NCBI GenBank assembly: GCA_028875575.1
Contig: JAPPDF010000100.1
Coordinates: 32,801 to 96,800 of the forward strand
Source: Acidobacteriota bacterium
GTDB taxonomy: Bacteria; Acidobacteriota; Terriglobia; Versatilivoradales; Versatilivoraceae
Reading direction: 5' to 3'
Length of the DNA stretch: 64,000 bases
Part shown: piece after piece, positions 24,431 to 49,863 of the stretch
Layout of the letters: the number at the start of each line of letters is the position of its first letter
Numbering within the stretch: position 1 is the stretch's first letter
The notes under the pieces: model-generated
What the model saw: only the letters and a program-made list of their open reading frames with translations
Database searches by the model: none
Told to the model about the DNA's origin: nothing
Position numbers and translations under genes: made by a program

Positions 24431-24620
24431 GCAAAAGAGATATCCACGAAGGACCACGAAGAACGGCGAAGGGCCACGAAGTAATGATGGATGAATTGTT
24501 GATCGCTGAATGTCGATTGGGGAGTTACACGGACTGAATGCGCCTCAGATCCAACAATCGCAATTTGCCTTACGTGGATTGACGGGACCACCCGGGAGCG
24601 CGGGCGTCCCGCCCGCATGC
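24431..24620. repeat. Partial copy of the dispersed CCACGAAG / GGGCGTCCCGCCC element
   Basis: The left part (24431-24482) repeats ccacgaag three times. The right part (24587-24620) is a single arm, cacccgggagcgcgggcg and onward, identical over about 30 bases to the arms at 44702 and 49649. The arm contains a gcgggc/gcccgc hairpin followed by seven T residues, so it may also end transcription of the sialidase-like gene. The remainder of the 332-bp gap is featureless. Confidence 0.7.
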
Positions 24621-24735
24621 TCTTTTTTTAGCCGCCTCTGAACTTCGCTGCGAGCCACCCTGTCGGCTGACGGAACCGTACCGATTCACGATACCTGACT
24701 CACTCGTCAATGTCGTATCGACTCAAGAGATCCGA

Positions 24736-34260: not shown

Positions 34261-35422
34261 CGGTGTGGCTCACCTCCCCTTGGACGATGGTGGTATGAAC
34301 CCCGAGACTCTCGTCCAGAAGCACCATGTCGGCGTCTTTGCCTGCGGCCAGGCTTCCCTTGCTGTCGGCGATTCCCAGGGATTGGGCCGGATTGCGGGTC
34401 AGCATGCCGAGCACGGTTTGCACCGGCAGGCGGCTCCACCGGACCAGGTTCCGCAGGGCTTGATCCTGGGTCAGAATGCTGCCCGCCAGCGTGCCGTCCG
34501 GCGTTCGACACACACCGTCCGAAAGGGTAATTTCACCATCGGCCAGGCGATACTGTCCCTCGGGCATGCCGGTGGGGCTGACGGCGTCGCTGATCAAGAG
34601 AATTTTCCCGGCTCCCTTGCACTGAAGGCAAAGTTCGACGGCAGTCGGCGAAACATGTACCCCATCGGCAATCAGCTCTGCCCAGACTTGCGGGGCGGTC
34701 AGGACGGCGCCGAGTATTCCCGGATCGCGATGGCTGAAGCTCCTCATGGCATTGAAGAGATGGGTGGCATTGGCGGCCCCCAGATCGATGGCCGCCAGGG
34801 TTTCTTCCAGGGTGGCGTTGGAATGGCCCAGAGAGACGACGACTCCTCTGGAACGGGCAAACTCGATCAGTTCCAGGCTCCCCTCGACTTCCGGAGCCAG
34901 CGTCATCAGCTTGACCTGACGGCCGGAGCGGGCCAGCAACTGCTCGAAGATGAGGGCCGATGGGCGACGAATGTGCTCGGCGGGATGGGCACCCCGCTTT
35001 TCAGGGTTGATGAAGGGGCCTTCCAGGTGGAGTCCCAGCATGCGGGCGCCCGGCAGGGGTTGATTCACCTGGCGTCCCAGGGCTTCCACGGCTCGCAGGG
35101 TCGCGATGGGTGAGGCCGTCATGGTCGTGGCCAGAAAGGAGGTGGTGCCGTGGGCGGCCAGGAAGCCGGAAATCACCTCCAGAGCCTCGCCGGTGCCCTC
35201 CATCACATCCCGCCCCAGAGCACCGTGGATGTGGACATCGATGAAACCCGGAGCCAGCAGTTGTCGGGGGTGGTTCATGACCTCGAATTCGTCCCCGGAA
35301 AACCGCACCGCCGCCCGGCTTCCGACTTCCAGGATCCTGGAGCCTTCGACCAGAACCACTCCGTCCAGAATCACCCGGTCGGGAGTCATGACCCTGCCGG
35401 CGGTCACTGCCAGTCGCTTCAT
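34253..35422 (-). CDS. nagA: N-acetylglucosamine-6-phosphate deacetylase
   Basis: Removes acetate from GlcNAc-6-phosphate to give glucosamine-6-phosphate, feeding amino-sugar recycling. The 389-residue amidohydrolase has the metal-binding DVHIHGALGRD (about residues 58-68), the HLEGPFINPEKRGAHP segment, VSLGHSNATLEE, ATHLFNAMRSFSHRDPG and the catalytic Asp in LISDAVSPTGMPEG. The ATG at 35422 has a strong GGGAGGGA site and overlaps the stop of the GH3 gene (ATGA). It overlaps murA by 8 bp downstream. Confidence 0.96.
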   Translation of the reverse strand: MKRLAVTAGRVMTPDRVILDGVVLVEGSRILEVGSRAAVRFSGDEFEVMNHPRQLLAPGFIDVHIHGALGRDVMEGTGEALEVISGFLAAHGTTSFLATTMTASPIATLRAVEALGRQVNQPLPGARMLGLHLEGPFINPEKRGAHPAEHIRRPSALIFEQLLARSGRQVKLMTLAPEVEGSLELIEFARSRGVVVSLGHSNATLEETLAAIDLGAANATHLFNAMRSFSHRDPGILGAVLTAPQVWAELIADGVHVSPTAVELCLQCKGAGKILLISDAVSPTGMPEGQYRLADGEITLSDGVCRTPDGTLAGSILTQDQALRNLVRWSRLPVQTVLGMLTRNPAQSLGIADSKGSLAAGKDADMVLLDESLGVHTTIVQGEVSHTVG

Positions 35423-38253
35423 GTCCCGTCCCTCCCTGCGTCTTCCGCCTGCATTATCTCCCATTGGTCCACCGCCTCGGCCACGGTGTCGGCAACTTCA
35501 CGGCGGGCCGACTGGATGGCGGTGTTGTTCCGGGTGGGATGCACCCGGTTGGTCAGGAAAACGATGAAGAGCCGGCGCCGGGGGTCGATCCACAACGAGG
35601 TTCCGGTAAATCCCGTATGGCCATAAGACTGCCGCGACAGCTTGTCGCCGGCGGAACTGTTGGGGGAAGGGGTATCCCAACCCAGGGCACGGCTGCTGTC
35701 GCGCGGGTCGGCTTGAGGTTGTGTGAAGATTTCCAGGGTGTTCCGCTTCAGGATGCGGCGATGGTTGTAGACGCCGCCGTTGAGCAGAGACTGGCAAAAC
35801 ACTGCCAGGTCCCCCGCCGTGCCGAAAAGACCGGCGTGGGCAGCCACTCCTCCCATGGCACAGGCGTTTTCATCATGAACCTCGCCCCTCAGCAAGCGCT
35901 TTCTCCACGGGTCCATTTCCGTAGGGGCAACGCGAGGCCTCCAGTCGGAAGGGGGGAGAAAACAGGTCCGGCGCATGCCCAGGGGACGAAAGATCTGATC
36001 CTGGGCCAGCTTGTCGAGGCTGTCTCCACAAGCTCTTTCCACCACCGCCCCCAGCAGAATGAAGCCCAGGTCGCTGTAGAGGCTCCGGCTGCCGGTTGGG
36101 TACTCCAGAGGAGTTTCCAGGATCCGTCGCAGGATATCTTCCTTGCCGCCGGCATGTTTGTAGAGAGGCACATGGGCCGGTAGCCCGGAGGAGTGCGACA
36201 GCAGATGCTTGAGGGCGACCTGCCGTTTGTTGCCGGCCCGAAACTCCGGAAAGAAGCGTTCGAGCCGGTCGTCCAGGTCGATGATCCCGCGTTCAATGGC
36301 CTGCATGACCAGGGTGGTGGTGCAAACCACCTTGGTCAGCGACGCCAGGTCATAGACGGAGTTCGAGTTTGCCGCAGGACTGGTGGAAGTGTAGTCCAGC
36401 CTGCCGTAACCTCGGCAAACCAGCAGCTTTTCGCGGTAGCCTACGGCCAATGAAGCTCCAGGAAAGGCTTGAAGGTCGATGAAGCGCCGGACAAGCCGCT
36501 GCAGTTCGGTTCGCAAGGTCCGGATACCCCTTTGGGGCGGGTTGGACGCATCCGCACGGGCCTTTTCCAGGACCATCGGTAAGGCGTCGCGCTGGAGGCC
36601 GGTGTCCCGTTCGGCTGTGCCCGGAATCGACACGGGCAGCCGGCCGGCCAGGCGAATCTCTCCGAAGAGAGCCTTGACTGCCGCCCTCTGAGAAGTGGAA
36701 ACGTGGCTGAAGGTGCAGAGATAGGTGGGGAAAAAGGAGAGTTGCCGAATCAGGTAAGGGTCGCCCAGGGAAATCAGGAGCGTGGAGGGCTTGACCCGGA
36801 CCAGCCCCCCCAACCAATCCGCCAGGAGCGGCGACAACCCCAGCCGGCCGGTCCCGGTCACCAGCGGAACATGCAGGGCCACCATGCAGAGATCCGCTTT
36901 GCCGGCCCTGTTCCTGACCTGGTCCAGCAGCGAGCGAGCCGCATCGGAGGAGAGACGATCCACTTCCAGCGAATCGAGTCGCGTCCTGAGGCAACCCTCC
37001 AGATCGGCGGCAGCGCCCGGGGATGGCCTGGTGGAAACGACGATCAGGTGTCCCGAGCGGATCCCCCGGACATCCAGCGGCACTTGAGAAGGATCGTCCT
37101 TCACCAGGGTGACCGAGGCATCGGCCAGGTCCTGGACTTGCTGCCGCAGGGCGGGAGCATTGATTCTTCGAGCGAGCTGCCGCAGGTCGGTTCGCTTCCG
37201 CCGGCTCAGCCCCAGCCAGGCCTTGGCTTGCAGGATGCGCTCAACCGAGCGGTCGACCCGAGCCTCGGATAGGCGACCCGTCTTTACTGCCTCCAGCAAC
37301 GCGCCGAAGACGACCTGGGCGTCGGGTGGATCCAGCAGGACATCCACACCGGCCTCCAGGGCCTGAACGGCCGCTTCGCCGCTCCAGTAGCCTCGAGTCA
37401 GTCCCTTCATCTTCATGGAGTCGGAAACCACCAGACCCTGAAATCCCAACTCGTTCCTCAAGACCTGTTCCAGTATCGCCGCTGAAAGCGTGGCCGGACG
37501 GCGAAGGTCCGACTCCAGGGCCGGGACGGCGATGTGAGCCGTCATGACCGTCATCACGCCGGCCCCTATCGCCTCCCGAAAGGGCGCCCACTCGATGCGC
37601 TCCAGCCGCGGACGTTGAGCGGTAATCACCGGTAGGGACAGATGGGAATCCACCTCGGTGTCGCCATGGCCGGGAAAGTGTTTGGCCGTCGCCAGAACGC
37701 CGGCCCGCTGGGCTCCGGCCACGAACGCCGCGCCCAGCCGACCCACCATTTGCGGGTCCTCTCCATAGGCACGGATGTTGATGACCGGATTGGCAGGATT
37801 GTTGTTGACATCCACCACCGGGGCAAAAATCCAGTTGACCCCCAGGGCTCGAGCTTCCCGGGCGGTGATGCGTCCCTGCCGGTAGGCCCATTGCTCCGAT
37901 CGGGTGGCTCCCACGGCCATGTTCCAGGGCAGGGGAAGGGTGTTGCGAATGCGGAAGGCGGCCCCCCGTTCGAAGTCGGATCCGATCAGCAGGGGAATGG
38001 GTGCCTGGGACTGCAGTCGGTTGATGAGGACGGCTGACTCGTAGATGTCTCCCTCGAAGAGAATGAAACCGCCTACCCGGCCTTGTCGGGCCTGGCGCTG
38101 CAGCCGTTTGTATTCGTCGCCGGCTTCGTTGAGGTGAGTTCCGCGGATGGCCGGCATGATCAGTTGGCCGATCTTGGCGTCCAGGCCGAGTCGGTTCAGT
38201 GTGTCACTAACCCATTTCTTATCAATTCCATTAGGTGTGACAGGTGAGGACAT
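35419..38253 (-). CDS. GH3 beta-N-acetylhexosaminidase (NagZ-like) fused to a serine hydrolase
   Basis: The 944-residue protein joins two enzymes. Residues 15-350 are a NagZ-type GH3 domain with KHFPGHGDTEVDSH (191-204, the His-Asp acid/base) and the nucleophile Asp 278 in VVSDSMKMKG. After a linker with a partial GH3 C-terminal domain, residues 590-944 are a beta-lactamase/DD-peptidase-type serine hydrolase: SLTK at 638-641, YSDLGF and HTGFTG. No signal peptide is seen at the N-terminus. Such fusions are known in Bacteroidetes and Acidobacteriota and fit cleavage of GlcNAc-anhydroMurNAc plus peptide or ester hydrolysis. It heads an overlapping operon with nagA and murA, which supports a murein-recycling role. 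Confidence 0.92.
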   Translation of the reverse strand: MSSPVTPNGIDKKWVSDTLNRLGLDAKIGQLIMPAIRGTHLNEAGDEYKRLQRQARQGRVGGFILFEGDIYESAVLINRLQSQAPIPLLIGSDFERGAAFRIRNTLPLPWNMAVGATRSEQWAYRQGRITAREARALGVNWIFAPVVDVNNNPANPVINIRAYGEDPQMVGRLGAAFVAGAQRAGVLATAKHFPGHGDTEVDSHLSLPVITAQRPRLERIEWAPFREAIGAGVMTVMTAHIAVPALESDLRRPATLSAAILEQVLRNELGFQGLVVSDSMKMKGLTRGYWSGEAAVQALEAGVDVLLDPPDAQVVFGALLEAVKTGRLSEARVDRSVERILQAKAWLGLSRRKRTDLRQLARRINAPALRQQVQDLADASVTLVKDDPSQVPLDVRGIRSGHLIVVSTRPSPGAAADLEGCLRTRLDSLEVDRLSSDAARSLLDQVRNRAGKADLCMVALHVPLVTGTGRLGLSPLLADWLGGLVRVKPSTLLISLGDPYLIRQLSFFPTYLCTFSHVSTSQRAAVKALFGEIRLAGRLPVSIPGTAERDTGLQRDALPMVLEKARADASNPPQRGIRTLRTELQRLVRRFIDLQAFPGASLAVGYREKLLVCRGYGRLDYTSTSPAANSNSVYDLASLTKVVCTTTLVMQAIERGIIDLDDRLERFFPEFRAGNKRQVALKHLLSHSSGLPAHVPLYKHAGGKEDILRRILETPLEYPTGSRSLYSDLGFILLGAVVERACGDSLDKLAQDQIFRPLGMRRTCFLPPSDWRPRVAPTEMDPWRKRLLRGEVHDENACAMGGVAAHAGLFGTAGDLAVFCQSLLNGGVYNHRRILKRNTLEIFTQPQADPRDSSRALGWDTPSPNSSAGDKLSRQSYGHTGFTGTSLWIDPRRRLFIVFLTNRVHPTRNNTAIQSARREVADTVAEAVDQWEIMQAEDAGRDGT

Positions 38254-38366: not shown

Positions 38367-38481
38367 GGGGAGGTTGTTGAATTACTGGAAAAACTTTTGA
38401 AGAACTCGTAGGAGACGATTTTAAAAAGGGCAATTCACGAACTGCCGATCGAAGTCTTTCCAGTAATTCAACAACCTCCCC
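38367..38481. repeat. 115-bp inverted-repeat hairpin element
   Basis: Two 30-base arms (38367-38396 and 38452-38481) are complementary at 29 of 30 positions, around a 55-base A/T-rich centre. It lies 114 bp upstream of the GH3 gene start. It is long enough to fold as a stable cruciform or RNA hairpin and has the look of a small non-autonomous mobile element, though no target duplication was recognised. Confidence 0.75.
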
Positions 38482-38610
38482 TACTCCCCGAAATTTTGCA
38501 AAAGGCTGGGCAGGAAAATCTAATGTGTTTGTTTTCAACGAAGTGACGTTCAGGCGCAGAACTTTTCGCTCGACGAGCGGATTTATTTTGTAAATGCGGT
38601 ATTAAACCTC

Positions 38611-38638
38611 TTGACATGCGGTAAATACATGTTATTCT
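38611..38638 (+). promoter_or_regulatory. Sigma-70 promoter for a candidate non-coding RNA
   Basis: A perfect TTGACA (38611-38616) is followed by a 16-bp spacer and TATTCT (38633-38638), with TG one base before the -10 box (extended -10). It is the best sigma-70 promoter I found in the window. No protein gene on the plus strand follows for more than 2 kb. Confidence 0.6.
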
Positions 38639-38644
38639 TCCTAT

Positions 38645-38860
38645 CCCACAGCCGCTTGAACGAGGGAGCCTCCCAGGAGCTGTTCACCCTGGAACGTAGT
38701 CCAAGAGAGAGTGGCTGTGGGACAAAGGGTGCCACCGAAGCTGCCCTTTGATGGCCGGAGCGGTTGATCGCGATAAGCTGCGGAGCCGAGCTCGTTGGCC
38801 GGAATTCTAGTGCAAAGGTGGCATTTGGGCAATGCTCAGGGTTGCAGGTGCCCAAGTGCC
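38645..38860 (+). ncRNA. Candidate structured non-coding RNA
   Basis: Starting just after the promoter, three helices can be drawn. A 10-bp closing stem pairs tcccacagcc (38644-38653) with ggctgtggga (38713-38722) and encloses ccagg/cctgg (38673-38677 with 38688-38692). Right behind it is a 7-bp hairpin, caaaggg (38723-38729) with ccctttg (38744-38750). A later 7-bp hairpin pairs ttgggca (38825-38831) with tgcccaa (38849-38855). I do not recognise tmRNA, RNase P RNA, 6S, SRP RNA or a known riboswitch. The 3' end is unknown; no clear T-run terminator was found. Confidence 0.4.
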
Positions 38861-39043
38861 GGCATGGAGGGACCGGAATTGGGAGGCCGGGAGAGGTGGA
38901 AAGCCTGTCAGCTTGCTGGGTCAGGCAATGCCTCTCCAGGCGCTCGAAGGTGTGGACGGGCAGGGGTGGAGAGGGAGACACGCTTGCCTGTCCGCTATCC
39001 CCCTCTCAGCGCGCGGGGAGGGGGTGCTTCAGCGGGATTTCTG

Positions 39044-40438
39044 CTAACTCTTCTTTCCTTGCCAGGGACCCGTGATGGCCAGGGTGATGCCCGGATTCTG
39101 GATGTTGGCGAAGAGGGTGGTTCCGTCGGGTGAAAAGGTCGAACCGGCAAACTCGGAGTTGTTGAATACGTTGCGGCCGAGCTTGTAGAGATCGCCCCTC
39201 GGCGTCACCCCGACCAGGAATTGCTCGCCCGATCCATCCTCGCACAAAACCAGGTCCCCCCAGGGCGCAACCGTGAGGTTGTCGGCGTTCTCGACCAAAT
39301 TGCCGTCGTTGGGCTCAATGAAGAGTTCCAGCTTGCCGGGGCTGTTTTTCTCGCCGGGTTTTCCTTCCTCGGAACTGGGGGCGTATCGCCACACCTGCCC
39401 CTTCTGGTTCAGACCGCCGTTGGTGCAGACGAAATAGATCCATCCCTTGTCCCACCACATGCCTTCGCCCCGGGCGAAGCGGGCCGCGCCCAGGTCTTCG
39501 AAACCCCGATAGCGCAGATCGTCGTTGGGGGACTCCACGTCATCGATTTCAGCCCACTCCACCTCGAACACATGACCCGGCAGCACCTTGCGCGCGTTCC
39601 AGTTGCGGGTGTCGAGACCGGGTTTCCCCTTCACTTTCAATACCTGTAGACGTCCGCCGGCTGTCAGTTCACCGGGTTTGTTCGGGATGAAGCGGTACAG
39701 GAGCCCGTCACCCCGGTCCTCGGTTTCATAGACGATCCCGGAATTGGGATCGACGGCGACGGCTTCATGCACGAAGCGTCCCATGGCTTTCAGGGGAACT
39801 GCGGGAGTCAACCCGACTTCGCTGGTGGCCGGCACTTCGAAGTTGTAGCCGTGGTCCCTGGCGTAGAGTCCTTCCTCCCTCTGAATCGTCTCCTCGCAGG
39901 TGATCCAGCTTCCCCAGGGAGTCGGCCCCCCCGCGCAGTTGCGAACCGTTCCGCCCAGGCTCAGGAAGTGCTTTTCCAGGCGCATCTGGCGAGTGTTGTA
40001 GACCACGGTGGTGGTTCCTCCCAGGCAGGGCCTCCTCCCTTGACCGGCGTCGTACAGTTTCTGCCGGTCTGCGGCCTTGAGCAACTGGTTGATGGGGCCA
40101 AAGGCTCCGATGGTCTGATGATCGATGCCCAGCTCGTGATTCCGGACCAGAATCGTGCTCCCTGACGGACCCGGAAAGGCAGCCATCCCGTCATGCAGAC
40201 CCGGCACTCTGTAGCCGTCGTCCATCAACTCTCCCACCTCGGAAAGGATCCGATAGGTGAAGCCCGCGGGGAGTTCGATCACTCCCTCCGGGTCGGGCTG
40301 CAGATCTCCATAACCCGCGGGAGCCGTGGGTTTGGGAAGGGGCTTCGAAAACCCCTTGCCGGTAAGAGAACGAAGCCCCAGAAAGCCCATGGTGCAGGCC
40401 CCGGACGCTTTCAGAAACGATCGTCGTGAGGAATTCAT
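39044..40438 (-). CDS. PhoX-like (DUF839) exported phosphatase
   Basis: The 464-residue protein opens with a Tat signal (MNSSRRSFLKASGACTMGFL), and the rest matches the PhoX/DUF839 beta-propeller phosphatases that use Fe3+ and Ca2+. Seen motifs are LVRNHELG (about residue 100), GGTTTVVYN, GTVRNCAGGPTPWGSWITCEE (the Cys of this loop binds iron in PhoX), GRFVHEAVAVDPNSGIVYETED and NLTVAPWGDLVLCEDG. I chose the ATG at 40438, just before the Tat motif. PhoX normally releases phosphate from organic esters outside the cytoplasm. No PHO-box was confirmed in the upstream gap. Confidence 0.9.
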   Translation of the reverse strand: MNSSRRSFLKASGACTMGFLGLRSLTGKGFSKPLPKPTAPAGYGDLQPDPEGVIELPAGFTYRILSEVGELMDDGYRVPGLHDGMAAFPGPSGSTILVRNHELGIDHQTIGAFGPINQLLKAADRQKLYDAGQGRRPCLGGTTTVVYNTRQMRLEKHFLSLGGTVRNCAGGPTPWGSWITCEETIQREEGLYARDHGYNFEVPATSEVGLTPAVPLKAMGRFVHEAVAVDPNSGIVYETEDRGDGLLYRFIPNKPGELTAGGRLQVLKVKGKPGLDTRNWNARKVLPGHVFEVEWAEIDDVESPNDDLRYRGFEDLGAARFARGEGMWWDKGWIYFVCTNGGLNQKGQVWRYAPSSEEGKPGEKNSPGKLELFIEPNDGNLVENADNLTVAPWGDLVLCEDGSGEQFLVGVTPRGDLYKLGRNVFNNSEFAGSTFSPDGTTLFANIQNPGITLAITGPWQGKKS

Positions 40439-40827
40439 TTCGGTCTGCCTTTCTGGGGGCGGCTCGGCGAAGGTCGATGGGACTCGCCGGTTCAAGACCC
40501 AGGGCGATTGGGCGCTACCCTCATGGATGTAAATGTAAGTCAATTCTGCGGTGGACCTTTATCTTAGCAAGAACCGCTGTGTCATCGGTGTAAATTTATG
40601 GTGAAGGGACACTCGGCAACTGTGGTATTTTGGGTCGGCATTTTCGGGGACGCCGGCTCCATCGGGTCCCGGGCGGCAAATTCCGGTCGGGCGGCATGGG
40701 ATGGAACCGGTCTGATTGCAAGTCCTTTGACCCGCATCTATTGAGGCCTCCCCAACCCTCCGCGGGACGCGCATGTCCCGACGAGCCATGAAGCGGGTCG
40801 GAACCCGCGAGCCCCGGATTTCTATCC
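40439..40827. other. 389-bp divergent gap, nothing assigned
   Basis: This stretch separates the divergent PhoX and M20 genes. Part of it (40520-40640) is A/T-rich, as expected for promoters, but I could not assign -35/-10 pairs or a phosphate-control site convincingly. Confidence 0.4.
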
Positions 40828-43167: not shown

Positions 43168-43225
43168 GCCGCCTACGCGGCTAAGGTGGCGCCGAGTCGA
43201 TACGACCCCGGGCTCCCGCCCGGGG
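43168..43225. repeat. Two small GC hairpins in the gap before the GT9 gene
   Basis: The hairpins are gccgc-ctac-gcggc (43168-43181) and the perfect 8-bp pair ccccgggc-tccc-gcccgggg (43206-43225). The rest of the 375-bp gap (43071-43445) has a weak hairpin followed by six T at 43337-43355, which could end the upstream operon. No gene is seen. Confidence 0.5.
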
Positions 43226-43445
43226 CTACCCTGAGTCGCAGCTACGCTGCTCTATAAGGAAGGCCTCTTTCAAGCGTTTCCTCGGTCTACCTACGCCAAC
43301 CGCGGTTACACCGCTCTCCACCTAACTACAACACTGCCTGGGGACAGGGTTTTTTAATTGAACTCTGCCGGGCGGCAGCGCGTAGTTTCCAGCAATGTGC
43401 GCTGGGTTCCACTGCAGGTGAACCGGCCTCTTGATTTCGACTGGT

Positions 43446-44587: not shown

Positions 44588-44918
44588 AAAAAAGAGTGAT
44601 CCACGAAGGGCCGCCAAACGTGACGATTCTGCCTCATCGGCAGGGCTGTGCCCCAGCGAGCCGGCGTGCGCGCCATTGAGAAGCAAGAGTGATGGGAGAC
44701 GGCCCACCCGGGAGCGCGGGCGTCCCGCCCGCATGCACTCCCGTTGCGTGCCGCTCAGTTTCCCTGCGATGCCGCACGCTGCCACCCTGCCGGCGGGAAC
44801 GGCAGGGGCTCGGCCGAAGCAGAGCCCTGACGCCGTTGCCGGTTGAGCCGGGAGGATGGGATGGGCGAGGCTGTGCCAAGACTTGTGCGGGCGGGACGCC
44901 CGCGTTCCCGGGTGGGGC
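44588..44918. repeat. Dispersed inverted-repeat element, copy 1
   Basis: About 330 bp that begin with an A-run and gatccacgaagggcc. They contain an inner pair of about 33-base inverted repeats (44702-44734 and 44885-44918) differing at one base and one insertion. The whole length aligns by eye with the element at 49526-49863, including the internal cggcagggctg and gccggcgggaacggca. No reading frame is credible inside. It fills most of the 475-bp gap between the GT9 gene and the M20 gene. Confidence 0.8.
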
Positions 44919-49525: not shown

Positions 49526-49863
49526 AAAAAAAGGGATCCGCGAGGAGCTACCAAGGACCACGAAGCGAGATGTCTCTGCCGCATGGGCAGGGCTGCGGCC
49601 CGGCAAGCCAGCGCGTGCCCCCTCGAGGAGCAGGAGTGATGGGAGGAGGCCCACCCGGGAGCGCGGGCGTCCCGCCCGCATGCACTCCCGTTGCCTGCCA
49701 CTCAGTTTCTCTGCAAGGGGCACCCGTCTACCCTGCCGGCGGGAACGGCATGGGCTGGGCCGAAGCAGAGTCCCGGCGCCGTTGCCGGTCGACCCGAGTG
49801 GAGCCGGAAGTCGAGGCTGTGCCAGGACTTGTGCGGGCGGGACGCCCGCGCTCCCGGGTGGGC
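49526..49863. repeat. Dispersed inverted-repeat element, copy 2
   Basis: About 340 bp parallel to copy 1. It begins with an A-run and ggatccgcgagg and contains ccacgaag. Its inner inverted repeats (49649-49681 and 49831-49863) match at 32 of 33 positions. It ends at the ggtgggc of the right arm. The two copies bracket the M20/GcvP-like operon. The rest of the 677-bp gap (to 50087) is an A/T-rich stretch with no gene I can support. Confidence 0.8.

Follow-up and report, generated by a model that had tools for sequence, protein, structure and literature searches.

A conserved promoter and structured core point to a probable stand-alone RNA gene confined, as far as seen, to one genus of Acidobacteriota

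The question raised by this locus is whether a strong promoter that points into DNA with no protein gene drives a new RNA, as a sequence-only reading of the region had proposed. The stretch analysed here (the window) comprises 64,000 nucleotides of a 4.5-Mb acidobacterial genome (G000:C100:32801-96800), and the candidate locus occupies a gap of about 790 bp between two minus-strand genes:

35419-38253, minus strand: GH3/beta-lactamase fusion gene, divergent from the candidate RNA
39044-40543, minus strand: phoX, convergent, i.e. facing the candidate RNA

Comparison across the genus suggests that the central claim stands: a promoter with a conserved core downstream of it is present in seven of seven genomes, and this locus would very probably be an RNA gene of about 280-390 bases matching no known family. 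The best-supported reading of the sequence evidence, which we consider probable, is a stand-alone structured noncoding RNA gene that is restricted to the genus as far as seen. The anatomy proposed earlier was not supported, the conserved structure lying at 38757-39031, and the stretch first delimited (38611-38860) was too short, as conservation extends from the promoter as far as about position 39031. A DNA search recovered the locus in 7/7 genus genomes but in 0 of the 94 others, with an identical gene order across the genus wherever the contig extends far enough.

The region can be divided into the following parts:

38513..38592, plus strand: upstream conserved DNA
38594..38623, plus strand: operator-like direct repeat
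38611..38638, plus strand: sigma-70-type promoter, TTGACA-16-TATTCT, with TG preceding the -10 element
38645..38756, plus strand: variable 5' leader
38757..39031, plus strand: conserved structured RNA core of about 275 nt

The promoter is as originally described and is kept throughout the seven genus genomes, with a -10 element of the form TAnTCT. It had been called the best in the window, which is too strong, a simple score placing it among the top three. It does lie in an A/T-rich patch (59% A+T inside a 39% A+T window), and transcription is expected to start near position 38645. Two copies of ATGCGGTA, at 38594-38601 and 38616-38623, stand 22 bp apart, the second within the promoter spacer. 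Segment identities were computed over five genomes, and that of the direct repeat plus promoter is 0.84. The TGCGGTA motif is retained across the genus with few changes: copy 2 reads TACGGTA in homologue L007, and L002 differs at the base that precedes copy 2. A regulator, possibly a dedicated transcription factor, may bind this repeat. The paired motif has a single occurrence in the genome and, because it is found nowhere else, no regulon could be built around it. Immediately upstream, the DNA at 38513..38592 reaches a mean pairwise identity of 0.75, against about 0.6 in the preceding intergenic DNA, and is a possible regulatory region. Further towards the fusion gene, a long inverted repeat (GTTGTTGAATTACTGGAA ... 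TTCCAGTAATTCAACAAC, 38367-38489) lies ahead of the promoter; it was seen only in the window species and L002, and resembles a small hairpin insertion.

Behind the promoter, the leader carries two of the helices that had originally been proposed, a 10-bp closing stem (38644-38653 with 38713-38722) and a 7-bp hairpin (38723-38729 with 38744-38750). Both are perfect in the window, but the stem is broken at several pairs in relatives, and the hairpin evolves at the background rate with no covariation. The leader as a whole shows background conservation and no covariation, with an identity of 0.66 and 36% gaps over 38644-38752 in the five genomes. The covariation check suggested for this 5' segment went against it, giving 0 pairs changed on both sides and a score below that of 500/500 shuffles. 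Folding of 38643-38860 beats 200/200 shuffles (z = -3.1). In L007 the leader segment is absent, yet the promoter and core are kept, so the closing stem and first hairpin are dispensable.

Conservation rises in the core. Identity over the five genomes is 0.79-0.85 at 38753-38945 and 0.95-0.96 at 38946-39031. Flanking intergenic DNA gives about 0.6 by comparison, and the third codon positions of the neighbouring genes 0.71-0.80. Ranked among all windows of equal length in the surrounding alignment, which is mostly coding, the last 86 nt (38946-39031, spanning helices H3 and H4 below) are in the top 0.35%. With gaps counted as mismatches, the whole core is not exceptional compared with coding DNA, 80% of windows scoring as high; the significance of its conservation is that it concerns noncoding DNA.

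The two ends of the core, GGAGC (38757-38761) and the 3'-terminal GCUUC, are complementary, and between them lie the third stem of the earlier reading (H1), three larger helices and a conserved segment:

38801..38818, plus strand: highly conserved segment GGAATTCTAGTGCAAAGG, mostly unpaired in the consensus fold
38820..38860, plus strand: H1, the third stem first proposed
38883..38945, plus strand: H2, a long arm
38952..38995, plus strand: H3, a hairpin with the invariant loop GAGAGGGAGA
38999..39024, plus strand: H4, a 9-bp G+C-rich hairpin

H1, unlike the two leader helices, is borne out by the homologues: its arms (38820-38831 with 38849-38860) are conserved, 96% of cells are paired and one pair is compensated, having changed on both sides; L006 carries a 15-nt duplication in its loop. 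All cells of H2 are paired and two of its pairs vary, on one side only, while L003 and L004 have lost the outer part of this arm (23 nt) and retain its base. In H3, 98% of cells are paired. H4 is unchanged in every genome and is present as a single copy at the locus in the genus. An alternative pairing (I7) would join the H3 loop GAGAGGGAGA to the 5' arm of H4, which is complementary to it; this pairing is invariant, so that covariation cannot judge it. H4 is followed by no strong U-run terminator; it may be a terminator whose U tract is weak, or the partner of the H3 loop.

The structure as drawn combines the GGAGC/GCUUC closing helix, two small hairpins and H1-H4. It leaves 96.7% of cells paired, compared with 42-51% when it is slid along the alignment, counts biased in favour of the drawn structure, which was itself built from these sequences. 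Covariation is thin, only three pairs having changed on both sides among seven related sequences that stand for about four lineages; one is a G-C to A-U change in the closing helix. That closure is putative, the closing pairs given by RNAalifold differing between the seven-sequence and the six-sequence alignments. On the plus strand, RNAalifold yields -96.2 kcal/mol, compared with -72.0 +/- 5.0 for column shuffles (about 4.8 sd), and on the minus strand -63.4, compared with -54.6 +/- 4.5 (about 2 sd). The variable helix pairs contain 24 G-U cells vs 4 A-C cells, an excess that favours the plus strand, subject to the same bias as the counts of paired cells. Folded singly, the cores give z-scores from -0.5 (L004) to -4.9 (L005); L003 and L004 alone fold no better than shuffles (z about -0.6).

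Four other explanations can be set against an RNA gene. The conserved 3' half could be the 3' UTR or terminator of the convergent phoX, or a two-way terminator, with the promoter unrelated to it. The end of the core and the phoX stop codon are indeed about 12 bp apart, and the locus has the same distribution as phoX across the family, phoX being present in 7/7 genomes of the genus and 0/5 other searched genomes of the family. However, the folding signal and the G-U asymmetry favour the opposite strand, the conservation, at roughly 275 nt, far exceeds the size of a terminator and takes in a plus-strand promoter directed at the core, and no T run follows H4 on the minus strand; we therefore hold this explanation to be unlikely. 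A transcript acting mainly in cis, antisense or convergent to the end of phoX, would fit the convergent arrangement, which is maintained in the genus, and the missing strong terminator after H4. It would leave the conserved folding of the core unexplained, and the bases from the core end to the phoX stop, where identity is 0.62, are not conserved, which makes such a role quite unlikely.

A DNA-level or mobile element, such as a palindromic repeat or insertion remnant, is suggested by a distant acidobacterium (G173; L073, L075-L077) in which a GC-rich double hairpin resembling H3/H4 recurs about 11 times as a dispersed repeat; its H4-like palindrome, CCCCCTCTCCGC..GCGGAGAGGGGG, has 11 exact pattern matches. 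In the genus, by contrast, the element is single-copy and fixed in place, a conserved promoter lies ahead of it, and the core pattern had no match in viral contigs, all of which speaks against this very unlikely explanation. The H4 palindrome itself occurs once in G000, G001, G003 and G006, and once together with one unlike copy in G004. Least probable of all is a small protein gene. Several frames are open over the core owing to its high G+C content, and three genomes carry AAAGGAGG with TTG after it, but four of the seven have an altered AAAGGAGG. Indels (23, 15 and 1 nt), which fall within hairpins, shift the frames between species and disrupt all of them. The absence of a protein gene noted earlier is upheld: the open frames gave no match to Pfam or any other protein family, and none stays intact across species.

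The stand-alone RNA gene could still belong to a described class. The earlier failure to match it to a known RNA is supported by Rfam, where the window and six homologues gave no relevant match even at E = 10. It is likewise not tmRNA, RNase P RNA or 6S RNA, each of which was found elsewhere in the genome and gave no match at the locus: tmRNA (RF00023) at C37:89858-90216, the single match to class A RNase P RNA (RF00010) at C43:10902-11273, and 6S RNA (RF00013) at C28:25312-25487. ARAGORN detected no tmRNA within the window and no tRNA at the locus. A riboswitch or cis-acting leader was set aside, the next downstream gene of annotated size, phoX, being on the opposite strand, as was a REP-like dispersed palindromic repeat, of which the genus genomes lack the many copies. 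The CsrB/CsrC/Rsm RNAs are of similar size, and the window species has an excess of GGA (17 vs 10.6 +/- 2.6 expected), weak in L005 and L006; a CsrB-like titrating RNA is nevertheless unlikely because CsrA (PF02599) is missing from 7/7 genomes of the genus.

Broader resemblances are of a general kind. Like the orphan structured RNAs brought out by comparative genomics (104 candidates, PMC2864571), the candidate is conserved, folded and intergenic; set against them, it matches no Rfam model, is seen in one genus only and always lies between the same two flanking genes. The 6S RNA and mycobacterial Ms1 (PMC4191392) are also stand-alone structured RNAs of a few hundred bases, a comparison that concerns how such RNAs work and does not imply polymerase binding; the genome has a separate 6S RNA, and the candidate gives no match to the 6S model. 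The large GOLLD, ROOL and OLE RNAs (PMC12286853) are also multi-helix and stand-alone, a general resemblance only, the candidate being shorter and having no Rfam match.

Relatives beyond the genus were also sought. In samples of the class and phylum, with strict filters applied to the larger searches, covariance models R1 and R2 retrieved no convincing one; their matches there were weak, the strongest inspected being the GC-rich H3/H4 palindrome. When named genomes were scanned with the core pattern, six records matched, each carrying the label Acidobacteriota, Acidobacteria or Terriglobia; Candidatus Versatilivorator vitaminiformans was among them. Isolate names hint at a possible association with marine sponges. 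Our search of the published literature found nothing on this RNA.

If the locus is a stand-alone RNA gene, the conserved promoter and direct repeat would drive plus-strand transcription through a variable leader into the core of about 275 nt, whose helices, strand asymmetry and placement of indels agree with a folded RNA. A transcription factor bound to both copies of TGCGGTA, which are spaced by two helical turns, might switch the gene. The folded RNA, with a 3' end predicted near H4 and the subsequent GCUUC, would act in trans, which we infer to be the likeliest mechanism, as a regulator or scaffold working via a protein partner or via base pairing, for instance through the conserved segment at 38801-38818, a candidate contact site. 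A more specific proposal is a new genus-specific class of trans-acting structured RNA in which the H3 loop GAGAGGGAGA and the 5' arm of H4 (CCCUCUC) pair as a switchable pseudoknot, expression being controlled by a dedicated TGCGGTA-binding factor; we regard this combination as unlikely. To our knowledge, few regulatory RNAs have been described in Acidobacteria, and a gene that keeps its position throughout the genus but was not found beyond it could point to a regulatory step particular to this lineage. It is also a clean, testable candidate: the promoter, the operator-like repeat and the core are all defined, as is the deletion that has naturally removed the leader in one species.

Elsewhere in the window, an Acido-Lenti-1 RNA (RF01687) scoring above the gathering threshold was detected at 43206-43251; of the other genomes compared, only the closest aligned across the gap in which it lies. 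A dispersed 314-bp repeat is present as two copies (44603-44916 and 49550-49862) that are 83% identical. Shorter sequences related to it occur at 24585-24623 and in other members of the genus.
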